The notes beneath the pieces were generated by a model. That model was not told the DNA's origin, did no database searches, and worked only from the letters and a program-made list of their open reading frames with translations. 32,463 bases of DNA. Origin: a bacterium (lineage in GTDB: Bacteria > Verrucomicrobiota > Kiritimatiellia > RFP12 > DVOR01). This document shows, in pieces, positions 4,084 to 32,463 of the stretch; positions within the stretch are counted from its first letter, which is position 1; each line of letters begins with the position of its first letter. The position numbers and the translations under genes were made by a program. The stretch lies in assembly GCA_030535915.1 (NCBI GenBank), contig JAUNQZ010000006.1, positions 1 to 32,463 on the forward strand, written 5' to 3'.

Positions 4084-5943
4084 TTATTTTTCAAACGAAG
4101 GCAAGGTATAATAACGGCAAGCATTGGGATAATGTTGACGCTTGGGCACATCGTAGGTCTTCTTTTCACTTTCAGGAGCACCTACCGGCAAAATGGAAAC
4201 AGAAGCCTTGCGATCCTTCGACGCGAAGGTGATTTCATACGTCTTACCAGCGTCAAGTTTCACGCCAAAAGAATAATGTGCTTCTTCACGCACAAAGCCA
4301 ACCGTTCCATCAACAGGAGAAACTGCATAGAGCGAAAGTTCGTCCGATCCTTCGAGCAATTGTGGTTCTGCAGTCACTTCAACAAAATAAGTACTCGTCC
4401 AAGCCTTCGGTTTTTCGGTGCCGAGGATGGGTGCATGCTTCTTCATATCCTCAATGAACGCATCATAAGTACGGCTATTTTCCTTTGCCCATGTACGCTG
4501 AGCAAAGACCGCACAGTTCTTATGAATCATCGGCAAGAGATCACGGCCACAGAGGCCTGGGTCAGTCAAGAATGCATTGTCATTCCAAACGGCCCATGCG
4601 GCACCCAATACAAGAGGATTGGTCGGATCAACACTGCAATCCCAACCCCCACGCTTAAAGGTACCAGGCGTCCAATTTTCATAGACAGGACGAACATTAA
4701 GATCGTCTCCATAAGCACCAACATTACCCGTACCATTCGGCACAACATAGGAGTGAACATCGAGAATATTGATGATTTCGTAGCCATCTTTCACCGCATC
4801 ACGAGGATCTTGCCAGTCAAGCGACCAAATGTGCATTTGGGTACCCTTGACAACCACAGGGGTCTTTCCCTTCTTTGCACGGAGAGAACCCCAGAAGCGA
4901 GGCGTCTTACCCTTTGCAATAATGTGCTTAAGGAGTTTGTCTGTAAAGGCACGATAGCTCTCTGCATCACCATAATATTCATCTGTACCAATATGAATTA
5001 CATCACCAGAGAAAATGCCTTCATCAATGTATTCATCAAAGATTTTCTTCACAAAATCAAAGGTTTCAGGATTATCCAAATCCAACATTGCAGCGCGTTC
5101 ACAATCGTGCTTATGACCCACCGAGCCCTTATACATTAAGTCCGGGCGCACACGCACCATCGCAAGGGCATGACCCGGCACATCGAGTTCCGGAACGATT
5201 TGTACACCCTTTGCAGCTGCACGCGCCACGAGCGATTGATAAGTTTTTTTGGAGAATGCACCTTCCTTTGCGGTGAGACCTTCAATTGAAGATTCCAAAC
5301 GGAAAGCACCCGCGGAGGGTTCAATCGCAAGCACATCTTGAGCGGTCTTCACGCCCGGATAGTTATGCAACCAAATGTAGTTATCCGACAAGTGAAGTTG
5401 GAGGTCGTTCAACTTATAGTACGAGCAAAGATCAATGAGTGTTTCAATGGTGGCAGGTGCAAAGTACTTACGACCACAGTCAAACATAAATCCACGCACT
5501 TTGTATTGCGGCCAGTCAACCGCCTTACCCGAGGGGAAAGTGCCATTTTCATTCTGGAAGACCTGAACCAATGTACGCGTACCCCAATAAGCACCCAAAG
5601 GTGTAGGCGCCGTAATGGTAATGGCATCGGGAGAGACTTCAAGGATGTAACCTTCTTCATTCTCAAGGATACCAGGGACAACCTTTAAACGGATATCACC
5701 CTTGATAGGTGTTGCAGATGCATCCACCACTTGAGATTGCTTAAGATCTTCCGCAAAAGCATCCGCATGAAGGCGCAACTGAGGACATTGAGAATCAAGC
5801 ACAATACGGGGCGTGGCTGGCAAAGTATAGGCCACAGCCTCGCCATCCGTCCATTCACGCAAATCAGGTATCACGACTGGCTTTGCACAAAATGCAGCCG
5901 AAGCCATACCCATTGCAACTACAAAAAGAGTGGATTTTGTCAT
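4084..5943 (-). CDS. Secreted beta-N-acetylhexosaminidase, GH20
   Basis: A 619-residue exo-glycosidase removing terminal GlcNAc or GalNAc. A Sec signal peptide (residues 1-19, MTKSTLFVVAMGMASAAFC) is followed by the GH20b-like N-terminal domain (about 40-140). The TIM-barrel begins near VRGFMFDCGRKYF (substrate-binding arginines probably R150 and R158), passes VPELDVPGHA (250-259) and reaches the catalytic pair D321-E322 in HIGTDEY (family consensus HxGxDE). QMHIWSLDW and a later Trp-rich segment would line the pocket. A beta-rich tail of about 110 residues follows. GH20 enzymes act by substrate-assisted catalysis through the N-acetyl group. Single-gene unit with its own promoter; AAGGAAG precedes the ATG. 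Role: probably host-glycan foraging, together with the sialidase at 27900. Confidence 0.93.
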   Translation of the reverse strand: MTKSTLFVVAMGMASAAFCAKPVVIPDLREWTDGEAVAYTLPATPRIVLDSQCPQLRLHADAFAEDLKQSQVVDASATPIKGDIRLKVVPGILENEEGYILEVSPDAITITAPTPLGAYWGTRTLVQVFQNENGTFPSGKAVDWPQYKVRGFMFDCGRKYFAPATIETLIDLCSYYKLNDLQLHLSDNYIWLHNYPGVKTAQDVLAIEPSAGAFRLESSIEGLTAKEGAFSKKTYQSLVARAAAKGVQIVPELDVPGHALAMVRVRPDLMYKGSVGHKHDCERAAMLDLDNPETFDFVKKIFDEYIDEGIFSGDVIHIGTDEYYGDAESYRAFTDKLLKHIIAKGKTPRFWGSLRAKKGKTPVVVKGTQMHIWSLDWQDPRDAVKDGYEIINILDVHSYVVPNGTGNVGAYGDDLNVRPVYENWTPGTFKRGGWDCSVDPTNPLVLGAAWAVWNDNAFLTDPGLCGRDLLPMIHKNCAVFAQRTWAKENSRTYDAFIEDMKKHAPILGTEKPKAWTSTYFVEVTAEPQLLEGSDELSLYAVSPVDGTVGFVREEAHYSFGVKLDAGKTYEITFASKDRKASVSILPVGAPESEKKTYDVPKRQHYPNACRYYTLPSFEK

Positions 5944-15172: not shown

Positions 15173-17308
15173 ATGAAAACTATTTTATCCATTTTTACAG
15201 TTATAACGATTTCATATCTCTTTGCGGAGGTTGCTGTTGATGCAACGCATCATGACACCTTGAAAGAAAATGAAGAGGTCATTGTTGTCACGGGAAATGT
15301 TGCTGCATTACCGAAATATCGCAAAATCATTAATGACGCCGGAACGCTCGTGGAGATGCCTCCTGAAAAGGTACCCTTTGTTGTTGACACCTTTACCGAA
15401 GATTTCATTGAAGATCGCAACACGACTGACCTCGACCAACTCCTCTCCTTACAGCCTGGCATTCATCAAGGTGGAAAAACGATGATGTCACGACATGCAG
15501 GAGCCTATACCATTCGTGGTTATGGTGGCAATGAAGTCCTCTTAAATGGCACCCCAATTACCGGAGGCACCGCCATTTATATGGACACAACTTTACTTGA
15601 AAGTGTCAGTATTGTAAAGGGACCCGTTGGCGGTGCATACGGCAGTCAAAGTAATGGTAATGGTGATGCTCTTGGCGGAGGAGGCTCCATTATCTTGCGT
15701 ACGAAGCAAGCCAACTTTGAAAAAGATTTTACGGATGTACTCTTGCGAGGAACCTATTCGAAAGCCTCGGGTTCGCGCATCAAAGCAATGGTTGATATTA
15801 ACCAACGCACAGAGGATGGTCAATGGGCTGCGCGCTTACCCGTCGCGTACGAATGGCGCGCACCTGGGTGGGCACCCGCTGGGGCTCCGCATGGCACAAC
15901 CCTCTCCGCTGCACCCTCCATTTCATTTAAAGCAACAGAGCGCTTAATCCTTGGTGCGGACTTCTTCTATCAATATAGCGACCAACCCGCGTATCAAGGG
16001 GTCCGTATCGTTAATGGAAAACCGATTGGAATGGGTTGGGATGGCACCTATACGCGCCCTGAAGACTATATGAAATATCAAGCGCATGGCTTTACTTTGC
16101 GTGCGGATGGTGACTTAACCGACTGGCTTGAAACGCATACGCGATTCTCCTTTACCCAAATGGAGGATCGTTACGATTATCGGGGGCCCAATTCGAGTCA
16201 TAATAGTAAATATGACATTGGATTTAATTGGGAGAATGAAAATGTCTTAATGCCTGAAGGTTATAATGGTCGCATTGCGGGGCGTTACGAATATGCTCAG
16301 GGAGATCGCTTGCGTCGACACTTTTATTTCGGAGAGAATTTAATCTTCAAGTTTGACACAGGAGATGTTGAGCACAAGTTCCTTGTTGGATTTGATAGTT
16401 TAGTCAAAGAATCGAGCGGTTGGGGATTCTTTGGCACAACGGCAGACTATTCGTCCGATTCCACGCGAACCGCAAAAATCGGAATTACCTTGCAAGAACT
16501 TATGGAGTGGAAAGGCTTTGCACTCATGACCGGTTTGCGAAGTGATTTCCATAATAGTGCAGAGCATGCCCACGCGTGGAGTTTCTCTCCTCGCTTTGGA
16601 CTCTCGTATGACATTATGGAAGAAGGTTGGGCGATTCTTTTTGCGAATCTCTCCTATACCGAAACTCCAAACTTCTACTACAAAAAGTATCCCGATGATC
16701 CAGGTTCAAACGCCTACTTAACGAGTTCTTGGCGATCGGTACAAAAAGAAGTTGGCTTACGCGTCAATCCCATTGAAACCCTTTGGTTGACGGCTTCTGC
16801 ATTTCGTATTGACCAATGCAACACTCCCGTCTTAATCAATGGTGGCACAGGGGATGGTTACTATTCTGAAGAAGGTAAATCCAATAGCCGTGGCGTTGAA
16901 TTCTCTGCAGCTGGTGATATTACCGAAAATTGGTCGGCGTATATTGCGTATGCCTATACCGATTATACGAGTGGAGATGTTTCCTTTGATCGCTATCCTC
17001 CACACGCGATTTCTGCTTGGACAAGTTATAAAGCCGAATGGTGCTATAATGCGGTCTTTGGCTTGGGCTTGCGATGGAGAGATGATTGGGAGATGACCTT
17101 CCGCGGACAGCGTGCCGACCCCATGTATCATGTCGACGACCTTTTAACCGTAGATGCATCGGTAGAGGTCCCCATTTCCGAATGGGCCTCCGTTAGCTTC
17201 GCAGTCCGTAACATTTTTGATAGCCGAGGGGTTGAATCCGCTCGTAATTTACAAGCCTTTGCAAATGACGGTCGAACATTTGAACTCTCATGGAAGATGT
17301 CCTTCTAA
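15173..17308 (+). CDS. TonB-dependent outer membrane receptor, siderophore-receptor-like
   Basis: 711 residues. A signal peptide (about 1-20) is followed by a TonB-box-like EEVIVVTG (34-41). The plug domain (about 60-180) includes LDQLLSLQPGIHQGG, YTIRGYGGNEVLLNGTPITGG and SVSIVKGPVGGAYG. A beta-barrel fills the rest and ends in Phe (ELSWKMSF) as required for outer-membrane assembly. NIFDSRGVESARN followed by GRTFELSW is the usual end of the FhuA/FpvA/FhuE class. Such receptors bind iron chelates or similar ligands and import them using TonB energy; the actual ligand cannot be read from sequence. AAAGGA precedes the ATG. First gene of an operon with an ABC ATPase and an FtsX-type permease; no periplasmic binding protein or BtuC-type permease is nearby. 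Confidence 0.92.
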   Translation: MKTILSIFTVITISYLFAEVAVDATHHDTLKENEEVIVVTGNVAALPKYRKIINDAGTLVEMPPEKVPFVVDTFTEDFIEDRNTTDLDQLLSLQPGIHQGGKTMMSRHAGAYTIRGYGGNEVLLNGTPITGGTAIYMDTTLLESVSIVKGPVGGAYGSQSNGNGDALGGGGSIILRTKQANFEKDFTDVLLRGTYSKASGSRIKAMVDINQRTEDGQWAARLPVAYEWRAPGWAPAGAPHGTTLSAAPSISFKATERLILGADFFYQYSDQPAYQGVRIVNGKPIGMGWDGTYTRPEDYMKYQAHGFTLRADGDLTDWLETHTRFSFTQMEDRYDYRGPNSSHNSKYDIGFNWENENVLMPEGYNGRIAGRYEYAQGDRLRRHFYFGENLIFKFDTGDVEHKFLVGFDSLVKESSGWGFFGTTADYSSDSTRTAKIGITLQELMEWKGFALMTGLRSDFHNSAEHAHAWSFSPRFGLSYDIMEEGWAILFANLSYTETPNFYYKKYPDDPGSNAYLTSSWRSVQKEVGLRVNPIETLWLTASAFRIDQCNTPVLINGGTGDGYYSEEGKSNSRGVEFSAAGDITENWSAYIAYAYTDYTSGDVSFDRYPPHAISAWTSYKAEWCYNAVFGLGLRWRDDWEMTFRGQRADPMYHVDDLLTVDASVEVPISEWASVSFAVRNIFDSRGVESARNLQAFANDGRTFELSWKMSF

Positions 17309-17318
17309 GGAATAAGAT

Positions 17319-18056
17319 ATGCAACAACAGCCTGCACTACAAGCCAACAATGTCTTTAAATCCTTTTGTGTAGACAAACAAAACATTGAGGTCTTAAAGG
17401 GGCTTTCTTTAACAATCCCCAAGGGTGCGTTTCATGCGGTTATGGGACCTTCCGGCTCTGGTAAATCAACCTTAATGAACTTGCTTGCAGGTTTGTTACC
17501 TGTCGACAAAGGGGATGTGGCGATTGCAGGACAATCCCTTGTGGGACGCTCTGACAAATCCCTTACCATCCTTCGTCGGCGCGAGGTTGGCATTATCTTT
17601 CAAGACTACAATCTTATCCCGACCTTGACCGTTGAGGAAAATATCATTCTCCCCGTTTTATTAGATGGGAAAATGGTCCCAACCCAACATCTTGAACATC
17701 TCCTTTCGCTTGTAGGTCTCCAGCATCGTCGGAATCAACCCGCCGATCGACTCTCAGGAGGCGAAGCTCAACGCACAGCCATCGCTCGAGCCTTTGTGGC
17801 CAATCCCCAAATCATCCTTGCAGATGAACCCACGGGAAACCTTGACACCCCTGCCGCAAAAGACTTCTGCGAAACATTAACCACTCTCAATCACAATTTG
17901 GGGACTGCAATTCTTCTCATTTCACACGATGCACAAGTTGCCGCAATTGCAGATGTTGTTCATATCTTGCGTGACGGGAAAATCCTTGGCGCCTTTGAAA
18001 CACATCATGATGCAGCCCATGTGGCCACGCGTTACTTGGAGTTTATCACGCAATGA
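17319..18056 (+). CDS. ABC transporter ATP-binding protein, LolD/MacB type
   Basis: A 245-residue ATPase. Walker A GPSGSGKST is at 43-51, Q-loop Q95 in IIFQDYNLIPTLTVEEN, signature LSGGEAQR at 145-152, Walker B IILADEP (165-171) followed by TGNLD, and the switch His at 203. The YNLIPTLTVEENIILP segment is typical of the LolD/MacB/FtsE group that partners FtsX-like permeases, rather than of siderophore importers (FecE/BtuD). It starts 10 nt after the TonB receptor with AAGGAA, and its stop overlaps the permease start (ATGA). Confidence 0.95.
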   Translation: MQQQPALQANNVFKSFCVDKQNIEVLKGLSLTIPKGAFHAVMGPSGSGKSTLMNLLAGLLPVDKGDVAIAGQSLVGRSDKSLTILRRREVGIIFQDYNLIPTLTVEENIILPVLLDGKMVPTQHLEHLLSLVGLQHRRNQPADRLSGGEAQRTAIARAFVANPQIILADEPTGNLDTPAAKDFCETLTTLNHNLGTAILLISHDAQVAAIADVVHILRDGKILGAFETHHDAAHVATRYLEFITQ

Positions 18057-20872
18057 ATGCAGCCTTAAAACTTCTCTTTCGAAATACCTTACGGAAAGAT
18101 AAGCTACGGCTCTTTTGTGCGTGGCTAGGAATTACTGCAGCGGTTGCACTCTTAACATGGGCCATTGGTCTAGCCGTTGTTTCTTGGAATCAATGCCGCC
18201 CCATGAGCGAACGTATCGGTAAACCCTTTGATTGTTGGGTGGCGACAAATCGCGCCTCCGGTGCCGCACCAAAGGGAACTGGTATGCAACGCTTAAGCCA
18301 TGCCTCTCCCTTCAAAATGATTCCAACCGAAGTTGTTGATGCCGTCAAAGCTTCCGATGATATTGAATCTTACATCTGTACAACCGTCTTTCGATGCCGT
18401 CTTGATTGGCGACCCGAGGGACGCCCCTTGCAAGGACCCGGCGTTGGGGGTGGCGTTGCGCCCGCACGCGACTTCCCCGATGGATGCCCCTATACCGAGG
18501 GACTCTCTGCCGGTCGTTGGCCCAATCCAAAAGCTGAAATTCCCGAATTTGTCATTTCCCAACGCGCCTTTGGTGAAGACCTTGAAGCTGCACCTCCCGT
18601 TGGGACAATGGTTCCTGTCGTCACCCCAACAGGGAATGTGGAAGCACGCATTTGTGGTTATCTCTCACCTGAGATTAAAACCTCTGCCGGTTTCCCTACC
18701 CTCTTTGCGAGTGACCAACTTGCAGACGCAACCACACTCGCTGAAACCGCAGGTGGGACGAATATTATTTTGATTAAATTAAAAGAAGGTCACAGCCCAG
18801 ACAAACTCGCGGAAACGGTTCGTACAATTGCTCCCGATGATGACGCTGCGACCCTTGTCTCTCGCGAAGCTCTTCTCAAACAACTTCGTAGTGATGCTCT
18901 AAATAACCTCCTTAATCAACTTCCCTTAATGGTTGCACTCGCAATTGTGGCAACAATGTGTATGATTATCAATGCACTCTGTATTGGGATTGAACAAAAT
19001 CGTACCCGTTATGCGCGTTTGCGAGCGTTAGGGATGAGTGCTTGGCAGCTCGCGCGTCTCGTTGTAAGAGAAGCGCTCTTTGTTTCAAGCTTAGGTGGCA
19101 TCGTTGGGTTACTTGTTGGCGGCGCTACACTTGCAGGATTTGTACTTACCCACCCCTTGGTCTTTCCAGATGGCTTATTGATTTCATGGGGGACACCGCT
19201 CATCATTCTTAGCATTCTCGCATTCTCAACGGCGATAGCGTCCATCCTCCCCATTCGCCGCGCCCTCAAATGTAAACCTTTTGAAGAACGCGCCGAGACC
19301 TCCATTCGTCCGCTCTCACATACCTTTTTTAAATCATTAGGATGTTTGCTCCTATTACTTCCCGTTCTTGTAACCCCTATTTACTTCCGTCATACAGCAC
19401 TTGCTTGTAGTCTTTGGTTCTTATTATTTGCTCTCCCATGTGCAATCTTTTCCATTCTTCACCTTGCGCGCTATCTCTTACCCTTTGTTGAACGCCTCCT
19501 TGCTCCTCTCCTTGGCAAGTTCTTTGGTCTTCGACCCGAACTTCTCCGCGGTTCACTTTCGCGTCATTGGCCAAGAAACGCACGCATGGTTCTCACCTTA
19601 ACCACAGGTCTAGGTGCATTTTTTGCGATTCACATTTGGGGAGCTTCTCTAACCAATCCCTTTATGCCCTCGCTTGAATTTCCACAAGCGATTGTCACTC
19701 TCACCCCCAATGGGGTCAGTCCTCAAATGGCTGCCGATTTATGCGGGGTAAAAGGTCGCATCGAAGGTCTTGAGACGCTCTCTTATCGTCCTTTCTCCGC
19801 GAATCAATATGTCCTCCATGAAGCCGACTATCAAGCGATTCAAGACCGCACAGGTCACCTTCCGGTCCAAAATAACATCCTTCTCATTGCTTCACAAGGA
19901 AACACTTGTATTCTTGATGATTCTCGACCCGAAGGCGTCACCGTTGGAGAAATGTTTGCGCGTCACACAGGGCTCAATGTCGGCGATTCATTCCGTATCC
20001 AACGCAAAGACATCCAAGGGAAGACCTTTGAAACATCCCTCACAATTAGCCATGTGGTAAAGTGCAATTGGCACCTCTTCTCTGCTCGCGCAGGATTGCG
20101 AGGACGAAATGGCGCGCCTATGCACACGTTAGGTCCCGTCTTCGTCCCATGGGAGGTCGCAGCAAAATGGGACCCCCAACAACACGAACGCATCTGCTTC
20201 CTTTGGCTTGATGGACTCCCCAAAACCGAAGCTGCAGAAGCCCTCTACTCTTCCTCTGAACGAATCGAAACCCACTTCCGAGCCCTCGTTGAAAAGGATC
20301 CCCACCCTTATCGCAATGAGGCTTGGAAGCATGCCCCCGGACGACGCCAATTTGCAACAAAAGAAATGGATGCCAACACTACACCAAAGCGTCCTCCCGC
20401 AAAGCCAGTTGTTCCCAATGTCACCGTCCGTTTGCGTGATGAAATTAGTGAGGGAACTCTTGCGCACAGTGCCGAACTCCTTGGCGATATGGCACGAATT
20501 CCGCTCTGGTCTCTCCTCATCTTAAGCACCGGGTTTATTTCACTCCTCGCCGCCAATGTGCGAGCCAATGCTGGAGAACTTCGAACGCTCCATGCCATTG
20601 GAATGACCCGTGCTCAAATGGGTCGATTCTTCTTTGCGCAAGCACTTATTCTCTCCTTTACCACCGCTATTCTAGCCTTACTTTTGGGTTCTACCATTGG
20701 CTGGGGATTCACAGGATGGACCTTAGCAAATATGCCCTTTGGAGGACTTCCAACCGTCTTTATCCTCCCCGTTGGTCGACTGTTGGAAGGCTTCGGCATC
20801 TTACTGCTCGCGGTCTTTATCTTAACCCCGCTCCCCATCCTTTGTCTTGTTCGAAAACTTTTACAGCGCTAA
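18053..20872 (+). CDS. Large FtsX/MacB-type ABC permease
   Basis: 939 residues. TM1 (about 19-42) is followed by a MacB-like periplasmic domain (about 45-280, with GLSAGRWPN and EIPEFVISQRAFGEDL). A first FtsX block lies about 284-400, including the cytoplasmic RTRYARLRALGMSAWQL loop, then central membrane segments about 422-525. A second, larger periplasmic domain (about 530-810) carries a Lys/Pro-rich low-complexity patch near residue 780. A second FtsX block (about 812-935) has ELRTLHAIGMTRAQM. This two-block layout is that of type VII ABC proteins, which transmit force to periplasmic partners or extrude substrates. It overlaps the ATPase gene by 4 nt. Pairing with a TonB receptor suggests a joint outer/inner membrane process; the substrate is unknown. 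Confidence 0.9.
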   Translation: MNAALKLLFRNTLRKDKLRLFCAWLGITAAVALLTWAIGLAVVSWNQCRPMSERIGKPFDCWVATNRASGAAPKGTGMQRLSHASPFKMIPTEVVDAVKASDDIESYICTTVFRCRLDWRPEGRPLQGPGVGGGVAPARDFPDGCPYTEGLSAGRWPNPKAEIPEFVISQRAFGEDLEAAPPVGTMVPVVTPTGNVEARICGYLSPEIKTSAGFPTLFASDQLADATTLAETAGGTNIILIKLKEGHSPDKLAETVRTIAPDDDAATLVSREALLKQLRSDALNNLLNQLPLMVALAIVATMCMIINALCIGIEQNRTRYARLRALGMSAWQLARLVVREALFVSSLGGIVGLLVGGATLAGFVLTHPLVFPDGLLISWGTPLIILSILAFSTAIASILPIRRALKCKPFEERAETSIRPLSHTFFKSLGCLLLLLPVLVTPIYFRHTALACSLWFLLFALPCAIFSILHLARYLLPFVERLLAPLLGKFFGLRPELLRGSLSRHWPRNARMVLTLTTGLGAFFAIHIWGASLTNPFMPSLEFPQAIVTLTPNGVSPQMAADLCGVKGRIEGLETLSYRPFSANQYVLHEADYQAIQDRTGHLPVQNNILLIASQGNTCILDDSRPEGVTVGEMFARHTGLNVGDSFRIQRKDIQGKTFETSLTISHVVKCNWHLFSARAGLRGRNGAPMHTLGPVFVPWEVAAKWDPQQHERICFLWLDGLPKTEAAEALYSSSERIETHFRALVEKDPHPYRNEAWKHAPGRRQFATKEMDANTTPKRPPAKPVVPNVTVRLRDEISEGTLAHSAELLGDMARIPLWSLLILSTGFISLLAANVRANAGELRTLHAIGMTRAQMGRFFFAQALILSFTTAILALLLGSTIGWGFTGWTLANMPFGGLPTVFILPVGRLLEGFGILLLAVFILTPLPILCLVRKLLQR

Positions 20873-27812: not shown

Positions 27813-27840
27813 TCAGTTCCTTAAAGATTAAAAATGACTT

Positions 27841-27869
27841 TTGCTTTTTCAACCGCATTATGCTATTAT
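27841..27869 (+). promoter_or_regulatory. Promoter of the sialidase operon
   Basis: -35 TTGCTT (27841-27846), 17 bp spacer ending in TGC, -10 TATTAT (27864-27869). The -35 is identical to that of the GH20 gene. Confidence 0.7.
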
Positions 27870-27899
27870 AAAAAAGTAAATTCTAGAAAGGAACATACA

Positions 27900-29339
27900 A
27901 TGAAGACAATTGCTTTTTTTGCCGCACTGTTGACCCTCTCCACAGCTTGTGCCGCCGTCTCCGACATTCGCGTTGAAGCCAATGGCGTCCCGACTTTTAT
28001 TGGTCGTTCTGACCTCTCGCAAGGCAAGGTCCATTGCGTTTCGGACAAGGCCAAATCAAACGAACGCATTACCCTTCAGTTTAAAGGTCAATACTCCGAC
28101 ATCCAATCGATTCGCCTCGGAGGAACCAAGGGTCGTGTCAACAAATCGACAGGCGAAGTCACCTTCGAAGTTCCTGTCAAGGAAGGTGCTTGCGAGTATA
28201 CCCTCTACATTGAACCCTCCAAGAAGGCAAACCTCATGAATAAAATTGTTCTTGAAGGTGTCCCTTTCCGTATTGGCAGCCTCATCACCTCTCCCAATCA
28301 AGAGGTTGTTGATGCGGGTCGCAAGTCTAAAAACTTCCGTATCCCTGGCATTGTTGAAACCCCGGATGGTACCCTTGTAGCGGTCTTTGACAATCGCTTC
28401 AATCACTCGGGCGACCTCCCCGCAGACATCACGGTAGGTGTTTCGATTTCGAAGGACAAGGGCACCACTTGGTCGCCAATTCGTACCGCAATGGATTGTG
28501 AAGGTCTTGCTGGTGGTAAAGGCATCGGTGACCCCACCATCCTCGTTGATCCCTCCAATGGTCGTATTTGGGTCGCGGCACTTCGTGCGCCCAATAGCGG
28601 TCACCCCATTTGGTCTTCTTCCAAGGGAACGGCCGACCCAAAGGATTGCGGACAATTCATCCTCGCCTATTCTGACAACAATGGCAAAACCTGGTCCAAA
28701 CCCATCAACATTACCGAAGATGTCAAGCGCCTCCAAGATCCTGACACCGCGGAATGGGGTCTCCTCTTCCAAGGTCCTGGCGCTGGCATTGCAATGAAAG
28801 ATGGCACCCTCGTCTTCCCCGCACAAGTCTGGGGTCACAAAGGTAAAGCACCACACCACGGTGTACTCGTCTATTCCAAGGACCATGGTAAAACATGGAC
28901 CTCGTCCAAGGCGATGACTTGGGGTGGTTCTGAATCCACCGTTGCCGAACTCCCTGACGGCTCCTTGATTTTCAACACCCGTGAAGGTGGCGGTCCTCGC
29001 ACCCGTATTACCGCTATCACCAAGGACTTGGGTGAAACCTGGACCAAACTCGAAACCGATCCCCTTCGTCAGCCCGGCAACCTCTGCCAAGCGGCTTACC
29101 TTGCTATCGGTAACGACCTCTACTTCTCAAACCCCAACTCTGGCAAGCGTGACACGATGACCCTCCGCAAATCCTCCGATGGTGGTAAGACATGGCCGAT
29201 TTCCATCGTCTATGATCCGCGTGCATGTGCAGGGTACTCTTCGCTCTGTCCCGTGGGTGATGACTCCATCGGTGTTATTTACGAAGGTCAATCGGACTAC
29301 CACTACTTCTTGCGTATCCCGCTTGAAGACCTCAAGTAA
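27900..29339 (+). CDS. Secreted exo-alpha-sialidase, GH33
   Basis: 479 residues. A signal peptide (about 1-19, ending TACAA) is followed by a beta-sandwich N-terminal domain (about 22-125) like the BNR-associated domain of bacterial sialidases. The six-bladed propeller opens with the RIP motif FRIPG (R147). Five Asp-box-like repeats follow (S/K-x-D-x-G-x-T-W) near residues 184, 258, 326, 374 and 425. Likely catalytic residues are E345 (ESTVAEL), the Arg triad R147/R361/R417, and the Tyr/Glu pair Y446 and E462. It releases sialic acid from host glycans. The start at 27900 has AAAGGA and a clean signal peptide; an in-frame upstream ATG at 27834 lies before the promoter. No sialic acid uptake or catabolic genes are in the window. 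Confidence 0.94.
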   Translation: MKTIAFFAALLTLSTACAAVSDIRVEANGVPTFIGRSDLSQGKVHCVSDKAKSNERITLQFKGQYSDIQSIRLGGTKGRVNKSTGEVTFEVPVKEGACEYTLYIEPSKKANLMNKIVLEGVPFRIGSLITSPNQEVVDAGRKSKNFRIPGIVETPDGTLVAVFDNRFNHSGDLPADITVGVSISKDKGTTWSPIRTAMDCEGLAGGKGIGDPTILVDPSNGRIWVAALRAPNSGHPIWSSSKGTADPKDCGQFILAYSDNNGKTWSKPINITEDVKRLQDPDTAEWGLLFQGPGAGIAMKDGTLVFPAQVWGHKGKAPHHGVLVYSKDHGKTWTSSKAMTWGGSESTVAELPDGSLIFNTREGGGPRTRITAITKDLGETWTKLETDPLRQPGNLCQAAYLAIGNDLYFSNPNSGKRDTMTLRKSSDGGKTWPISIVYDPRACAGYSSLCPVGDDSIGVIYEGQSDYHYFLRIPLEDLK

Positions 29340-30755: not shown

Positions 30756-32075
30756 ATGACGAACTCCTCTACTCAAACCTCTCTCCGTGCATGGGCGTTA
30801 ATTCCATTCTTTGTTTTTCTCTTCTTTTATTTAGGCTGTTCAATCCTGATGAAGGACTTCTCTGCCATTCCCATGCCGGTGGCTTTTTTGGTCGCCTCTG
30901 CAGTGGCTCTTTTTCAGAATCGTACCCGCACCTTGCAGGATAAGATTGATTCCTTCGCCCAAGGCATGGGAGAGCTCAATATTATGCTGATGTGTTTAAT
31001 TTTTATCCTCGCTGGCATTTTCTCTGCCGTTGCGAAGGAAATGAACGCGATTGATTCAGCGGTTATCCTCACGCGAACGCTGATTCCGGATCATCTTCTT
31101 TTAGTTGGGATGTTTTCGATTGCGTGTTTAGTGTCATTAGCTATTGGAACAAGTTGTGGCACGATTGCAACGCTAGTTCCGCTCGCATTGGAACTCGCTG
31201 CGTCGGTTCATCTTTCTCCAGAATGGATGCTCAGTGCAGTTGTTGGTGGTGCGATGTTTGGTGACAACATGTCCATCATTTCGGATACGACCATCGCTGC
31301 CACCCGAACGCAAGGCATCCCCATGCACGAAAAATTCGTAACCAATTTTAGTTTCGCCTTTCCTGCGGTGATTGCAACGGTGGTTGTCTATGCCTTTTTC
31401 TCTCCCTCTATCACCCTCGTTGATCAACTCCGTGCAATTACCTTGACGGATATCATTCTTGTACTCCCCTATTTAGTCGTACTCATTCTTTCGCTTTGCC
31501 GATTCAATGTTATCGCCCTCCTCTTCTTTGGCATTCTTTTTGCTGCAATCATCGGTTTAACTTGTCAACAATTTGATTCTTCCTTAACGCTCTTTAAAGC
31601 CATGCAAGAGGGCTTACTGGGAATGAGTGAAACAATGATGGTCGCGCTCCTTGCAGGAGGCATGATGGCATTGGTTCGTTCTAATGGTGGCATTGCTTAT
31701 ATTCTCACAGTGATTGGTCGTCGAATTGCCTCTACCCGTGCTTGTGAATATTGCGTCGCACTCCTCATTGCACTGGTCAACCTTTTCACCGCGAACAATA
31801 CCGTCGCCATTGTTATGACGGGTCCCATTGCGAAAGAACTCAGCCAGACGCATGGCTGCTCTCCGCGTCGTATTGCGTCTATTCTTGATGCGACCTCTTG
31901 TGTGGTTCAAGGGTTCATCCCTTACGGGGCACAACTACTCATTGTCGCTGGTCTCGTTCAACTCGCCCAAGGGGAACTCTCCATTTTCAAACTCATCACC
32001 CATCTCTATTACCAACATTTCCTCTTGCTCGCGCTTCTTCTCTTTATCTGGTTTAAGCCCCGTAAACATTCTTAA
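30756..32075 (+). CDS. nhaC: NhaC-family Na+/H+ antiporter
   Basis: A 439-residue integral membrane protein with about 11-12 hydrophobic segments. The diagnostic segment GAMFGDNMSIISDTTIAATRTQG spans about 165-187, preceded by SLAIGTSCGTIATLVPLALELA. A second half-repeat has NLFTANNTVAIVMTGPIAKEL and FIPYGAQLLIVAGL. NhaC-type proteins exchange sodium for protons (some act on carboxylates), so substrate certainty is moderate. It would help maintain the sodium gradient also used by the Na/Pi cotransporter. The Shine-Dalgarno is weak (GAAAG, 11 nt upstream), in contrast to the strong promoter. Confidence 0.88.
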   Translation: MTNSSTQTSLRAWALIPFFVFLFFYLGCSILMKDFSAIPMPVAFLVASAVALFQNRTRTLQDKIDSFAQGMGELNIMLMCLIFILAGIFSAVAKEMNAIDSAVILTRTLIPDHLLLVGMFSIACLVSLAIGTSCGTIATLVPLALELAASVHLSPEWMLSAVVGGAMFGDNMSIISDTTIAATRTQGIPMHEKFVTNFSFAFPAVIATVVVYAFFSPSITLVDQLRAITLTDIILVLPYLVVLILSLCRFNVIALLFFGILFAAIIGLTCQQFDSSLTLFKAMQEGLLGMSETMMVALLAGGMMALVRSNGGIAYILTVIGRRIASTRACEYCVALLIALVNLFTANNTVAIVMTGPIAKELSQTHGCSPRRIASILDATSCVVQGFIPYGAQLLIVAGLVQLAQGELSIFKLITHLYYQHFLLLALLLFIWFKPRKHS

Positions 32076-32113
32076 TAGAGGATTTTTACATTAGACAAAT
32101 CCATCCATAAATA

Positions 32114-32143
32114 AAAAAGCCCTCGGATTCCGGGGGCTTTTTA
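32114..32143. terminator. Bidirectional terminator between nhaC and the repeat gene
   Basis: AAAAAGCCCTCGG / CCGGGGGCTTTTT stem (one wobble on the plus strand) with an ATT loop. It serves both converging genes. Confidence 0.9.
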
Positions 32144-32170: not shown

Positions 32171-32463
32171 TTACTGAGCAACAGGCGCACACTTACAAGC
32201 ACGCTTCGCCTTCATGCACTTAGGTGCAGCATGCGGGCACTGCTTCATAAAACGAGGAGCCTTGCCCTGCTTCTTCAAGCAACGACCATGAGGACCCTTA
32301 CCATCCATCTTCTTCATGCACTTAGGAGTAGCAGCAGGGCACTGCTTCATGCAACGGAAACCCTTGCCCTTGCCTTGCTTCTTCAAGCAACGACCATGAG
32401 GACCCTTGCCATCCATCTTCTTCATGCACTTAGGAGTAGCAGCAGGGCACTGCTTCATGCAAC
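32171..32463 (-). CDS. Cys/Lys/Met-rich tandem-repeat protein, N-terminus off the window
   Basis: The minus-strand frame is open to the right edge and ends with a stop at 32171. The last 95 residues contain 11 Cys (about 12%) and many Lys, Gly, Pro and Met. They form two near-identical units beginning MKQCPAATPKCMKKMDGKG (36 and 34 residues) and a shortened last unit MKQCPHAAPKCMKAKRACKC. Per full unit Cys falls at positions 4, 11 and 24. The codon before the first visible Met is TGC (Cys), matching RC-MKQCP inside the array, so the Met is internal and more units lie upstream. The family is not recognised. Cys, His and Met density with basic charge suggests metal or anion binding, or a disulfide-linked secreted peptide; no function is claimed. 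Confidence 0.7.
   Translation of the reverse strand, partial: CMKQCPAATPKCMKKMDGKGPHGRCLKKQGKGKGFRCMKQCPAATPKCMKKMDGKGPHGRCLKKQGKAPRFMKQCPHAAPKCMKAKRACKCAPVAQ
32261..32463 (-). repeat. 108-bp tandem repeat within the Cys-rich gene
   Basis: A 95-bp block at 32261-32355 recurs at 32369-32463 with two base differences; the period is 108 bp (36 codons), so reading frame is kept. The array continues past the window edge. Confidence 0.9.

Follow-up and report, generated by a model that had tools for sequence, protein, structure and literature searches.

An orphan cysteine- and lysine-rich tandem-repeat protein, probably exported and apparently encoded across an assembly gap, in a presumably anaerobic gut bacterium

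Introduction

Metal binding is a common role of free thiols on exported cysteine-rich proteins. CusF and PcoE are periplasmic copper-binding Met/His/Cys proteins, and OmcA and OmcB are cysteine-rich envelope proteins of chlamydiae. Of the bacterial metallothioneins, PmtA has been found on the surface of cells (PMC11237414). The Vanabins of ascidians, in which 18 conserved cysteines form nine disulfides, bind V(IV) via the amines of lysine and arginine (PMC9486056), and thus a composition rich in both cysteine and basic residues can bind metal.

Here we describe a repeat protein encoded at the right end of the stretch of DNA analyzed (the window: 32,463 nucleotides, positions 1 to 32463 of contig C35, which extends to 33263). 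Like the bacterial metallothioneins SmtA and PmtA, it is small, cysteine rich, and poor in aromatic residues, but it differs from them in its predicted signal peptide, its repeats, its widely spaced cysteines, its very basic character, and the lack of a profile match. With the Vanabins it shares its richness in cysteine and in the basic residues that those proteins use in metal binding; however, Vanabins are eukaryotic and have nine disulfides, and the similarity to their profile (PF11437; E = 0.31, 11.7 bits against a cut-off of 25) is at chance level and not significant. Like CusF and PcoE, it would be exported and contains methionine and histidine, but we found no sequence similarity to either and no copper genes adjacent to its gene. 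OmcA and OmcB are likewise exported, cysteine rich, and from the same superphylum, but no profile match was found, and the host, with three penicillin-binding transpeptidase genes in its genome, has no apparent need for a disulfide-built wall. A Chlamydia-like disulfide wall was rejected as a need because of these transpeptidases.

Results

The repeat array is real. Its two copies on the plus strand (32260-32355 and 32368-32463) differ at 2 of the 96 bp compared, with a period of 108 bp; TRF reported 1.9 copies with a 97% match at the same period, and the self-match score of the repeat was 90, compared with a maximum of 10 among 100 shuffles. Since the second copy reaches the end of the window, its length there reflects truncation. 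The first-pass annotation, made from the letters of the window, had described two 95-bp copies with two differences, which is correct to within a base.

The units lie head to tail and in frame on the minus strand, where the open frame terminates at a TAA (32171-32173). Between the assembly gap and this stop (32171-32463, minus strand), 96 residues are encoded in frame. They comprise a full 36-residue unit, CMKQCPAATPKCMKKMDGKGPHGRCLKKQGKGKGFR (32354-32461); a next unit of 35 residues with a diverged end, CMKQCPAATPKCMKKMDGKGPHGRCLKKQGKAPRF (32249-32353); and a degenerate last unit with a CKC-containing C terminus, MKQCPHAAPKCMKAKRACKCAPVAQ, directly followed by the TAA (32171-32248). The layout of the full unit is MKQC-PAATPKC-MKKMDGKGPHGRC-LKKQGKGKGFRC, with 3, 6, 12, and 11 residues between successive cysteines. 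The cysteines at positions 4, 11, and 24 had been noted correctly before, but the unit contains a fourth, which directly precedes the next methionine. Each 36-residue unit also carries several methionines and one histidine and has a net charge of approximately +10, with KK and R sites within and between units. The total exceeds two units, as there is another on the far side of the gap (contig C35, 32564-32650) in addition to the degenerate one.

The differences between the unit cores all lie at third positions and are synonymous: four bases between units 1 and 2, and two between units 2 and 3. With about 22% of random changes being synonymous, the chance of four of four is roughly 0.002. On the basis of this substitution pattern, the gene looks translated and maintained. 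The earlier proposal of recent duplication or homogenization is a plausible one, but as the core differences are synonymous, selection at the protein level contributes as well.

The gene continues beyond the window. Exactly 100 N (C35 32464-32563) directly adjoin the right end of the window, inside the array, and the same gene resumes after them. The bases flanking the N run (...GGTTTCC and GTTGCATG... on the coding strand) are neighbors in an intact repeat. Read as exactly 100 bases, the gap shifts the frame; read as zero or as whole 108-bp units, it leaves the frame open. Because the flanks abut in repeat register, the N run suggests a scaffold placeholder and probably stands for whole 108-bp units in a collapsed repeat; the continuity of the gene across it is our inference. 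The source assembly comprises 1.67 Mb in 173 contigs and is 91% complete. In metagenome assemblies, a scaffold gap within a repeat can conceal the N terminus of such genes along with their repeat copy number.

Extending the sequence rightward, as the first-pass annotation had advised, revealed the start of the gene, an ATG at C35 32855 preceded by AAGGAATTCGT with a Shine-Dalgarno-like AAGGAA upstream. The N terminus, MKKMTLMAMVACFATFVFA/QKS, resembles a Sec-type signal peptide with an AxA-like cleavage site, as judged by eye, and because of this start the protein is probably exported. The part beyond the gap held no known domain that would account for the repeat, and the frame is interrupted only by the 100-N placeholder. 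From the N terminus, the protein consists of the signal peptide, a short CKYC domain, an Ala/Pro/Lys linker, unit 1 (beyond the gap), units 2 and 3, and the degenerate unit ending in CKCAPVAQ. Joined with a zero gap, it has 194 residues, including 40 lysines and 17 cysteines; its mature part of 175 residues contains 16 cysteines (9%), 10 methionines, and 4 histidines, with 46 Lys plus Arg against 5 Asp plus Glu and a pI of ∼10.2.

In our reading, the gene forms a single-gene unit. The approximately 200 bp upstream of it (positions 1030-1230 of locus L006) are without an obvious gene and contain a TTGACG at a promoter-like distance, which the consensus scan left unscored. On the other side, a palindrome with an A-run and a T-run (32113-32142; fold of -16.2 kcal/mol, z = -2.85) is probably a terminator common to the repeat gene on the minus strand and a convergent gene on the plus strand; comparable sequence is present at other places in the genome, and the palindrome went unflagged in the consensus scan. 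The convergent gene (30756-32075) encodes a membrane protein of the Na+/H+ antiporter family (PF03553, E = 2.8e-23). It lies outside the repeat system and served to place the genome, its nearest named relatives coming from Lentisphaeria and Kiritimatiellae metagenome-assembled genomes (MAGs), mostly of ruminant gut. Neither metal genes nor known metal regulators were found near the repeat gene, and no dedicated exporter or immunity gene adjoins it. Elsewhere in the window, a GH20 hexosaminidase-like protein (4084-5943, minus strand) and a BNR-repeat, sialidase-like protein (27834-29339, plus strand), both with a signal-peptide-like start, are consistent with the use of host glycans.

The protein is unusual, an orphan in all of the collections that we searched. 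No relative was found in the 17 genomes of the genus (16 besides its own), in the overlapping sets of 162 order, 346 class, and 388 phylum genomes, in viral contigs, or in phage or plasmid collections; a word scan of ∼85,000 species, which detects close relatives only, was also negative. Since the genus is diverged (the antiporter is at most 53% identical) and word scans are limited in this way, the searches could have missed relatives that are distant or evolve fast. Profile and sequence searches of Pfam, NCBIfam, PHROGs, and PDB returned no family match, in agreement with the initial view that the family is unknown, and literature searches yielded no report of such a protein.

Several candidates were discarded. 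The matches to PDB entry 2fy1 (E = 0.017) and to the profiles Ribosomal_S30 (E = 0.011) and Zn_ribbon_3 (E = 0.0096) are of low complexity or very short and fall below curated cut-offs. Other genomes gave weak matches (E of 4e-4 to 1) to protein P0002 or to the joined protein. Three of these loci (L023, L042, and L043) proved on inspection to lie where long open frames overlap one another in several reading frames, without a Cys-repeat protein, and were rejected as compositional. L041 and the remaining matches were covered by a composition scan of all fetched loci, including the 80 that bear the antiporter, which found no counterpart. The scan brought up one unrelated product in a Lentisphaeria MAG from the cecum of a roe deer (L046, 2841, minus strand), a signal-peptide-bearing, lysine-rich, coiled-coil-like protein of 134 residues with a cysteine-rich C terminus, which showed no resemblance in sequence to the repeat protein. 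The AlphaFold model of the repeat protein (pLDDT 45) has no confident fold and could not serve for a fold search.

Discussion

The composition of the repeats had initially been taken to suggest metallothionein-like metal binding. Membership in that family is not supported. Neither half of the protein matched PF02069 (Metallothio_Pro) at an E value of ≤10, a negative that excludes a clear match only, as HMMER filters drop most weak ones; the mature part has one CxC and one CxxC rather than densely clustered thiols, and it is very basic and preceded by the predicted signal peptide. By profile and cysteine pattern the protein is thus not a metallothionein, although it may work like one and may bind metal.

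The explanation that we favor, tentatively and at less than even odds, is that of an exported free-thiol metal binder. The product of the single gene would be exported through Sec, and in its mature form the short CKYC domain and the Ala/Pro/Lys-rich linker would be followed by no fewer than three and a half nearly identical units of 36 residues. Its cysteines would remain free thiols and, together with methionine and histidine, would bind copper, zinc, or similar soft metals, either in the periplasm or outside the cell; the lysines would hold the protein to anionic polymers of the envelope or of mucus. Metal capacity would then rise with each additional repeat unit. Whereas the gene structure on either side of the gap, the repeats, the lack of detectable relatives, and the composition are observed, the export, the state of the thiols, the binding of metal, and the tethering are inferred. 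Counting against metal binding are the wide spacing of the cysteines, without clusters of the metallothionein style; the high positive charge, which repels cations and suits the binding of polyanions no less well; and the absence of nearby metal genes, of metallothionein profile matches, and of a confident structural model.

The thiol state bears on a second suggestion of the first-pass annotation, that of a small secreted disulfide-rich product. DsbA, DsbB, VKOR, and DsbD (PF01323, PF02600, PF07884, and PF02683) were not detected in this 91%-complete genome, whereas the families were found in control genomes, making a disulfide-folded product less likely than metal-binding free thiols; a missing gene or another oxidase is possible. 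The host is presumably anaerobic, judging from its gut relatives. Since obligate anaerobes tend to exclude cysteine from exported proteins (PMC12453122), the cysteines retained here suggest a thiol role, although the exclusion is not strict in this genome, as exported-looking proteins of the window also hold cysteine (9 of 619 residues in the GH20 protein).

A stronger form of the metal-binding reading would make the protein the founder of a new family, an exported, thiol-rich, polycationic metal sponge of an anaerobe without a detectable disulfide-forming system, its capacity tuned by the copy number of the 108-bp unit. We regard this as rather unlikely. If true, it would mean free thiols doing the work outside the cytoplasm in a genome without a detectable Dsb or VKOR system, and it is easily tested.

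In a close rival to metal binding, the protein is a cationic component of the envelope or surface whose lysines bind polyanions (lipopolysaccharide, mucin, DNA, or acidic polysaccharide), with the cysteines forming oligomers or being secondary. The charge points to anionic polymers almost as well, through the excess of basic over acidic residues, the high pI, and the Ala/Pro/Lys linker; the GH20 and BNR-repeat proteins of the region suggest contact with host glycans, and a sequence without a confidently modeled fold fits as well. Lysine alone, however, leaves unexplained the four cysteines per unit that are kept through the repeats, and we consider this reading possible but somewhat doubtful.

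Compared with thiol-based metal binding, a secreted product rich in disulfides, such as a precursor cleaved into several cationic cysteine-rich antimicrobial peptides, appears improbable. Repeat precursors of cysteine-rich cationic peptides exist in eukaryotes, and the small units with four cysteines, strong positive charge, and KK and R sites would suit such processing, but the undetected Dsb and VKOR proteins, the lack of an adjoining exporter or immunity gene, and the lack of a family match all argue against it. A young lineage-specific gene, its repeats recently expanded and its function not settled, would account for the absence of relatives from the 16 other genus genomes and from the order, class, and phylum samples, but this too has a low probability, as a maintained gene is what one would expect from the synonymous-only core differences and from the gene's own Shine-Dalgarno sequence, signal peptide, and terminator-like palindrome, and fast evolution in so diverged a genus could hide relatives.

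Elsewhere in the window, a single run of genes on the plus strand (15173-20872) encodes a TonB-dependent receptor plug protein, followed by an ABC ATPase and a large FtsX-like permease.
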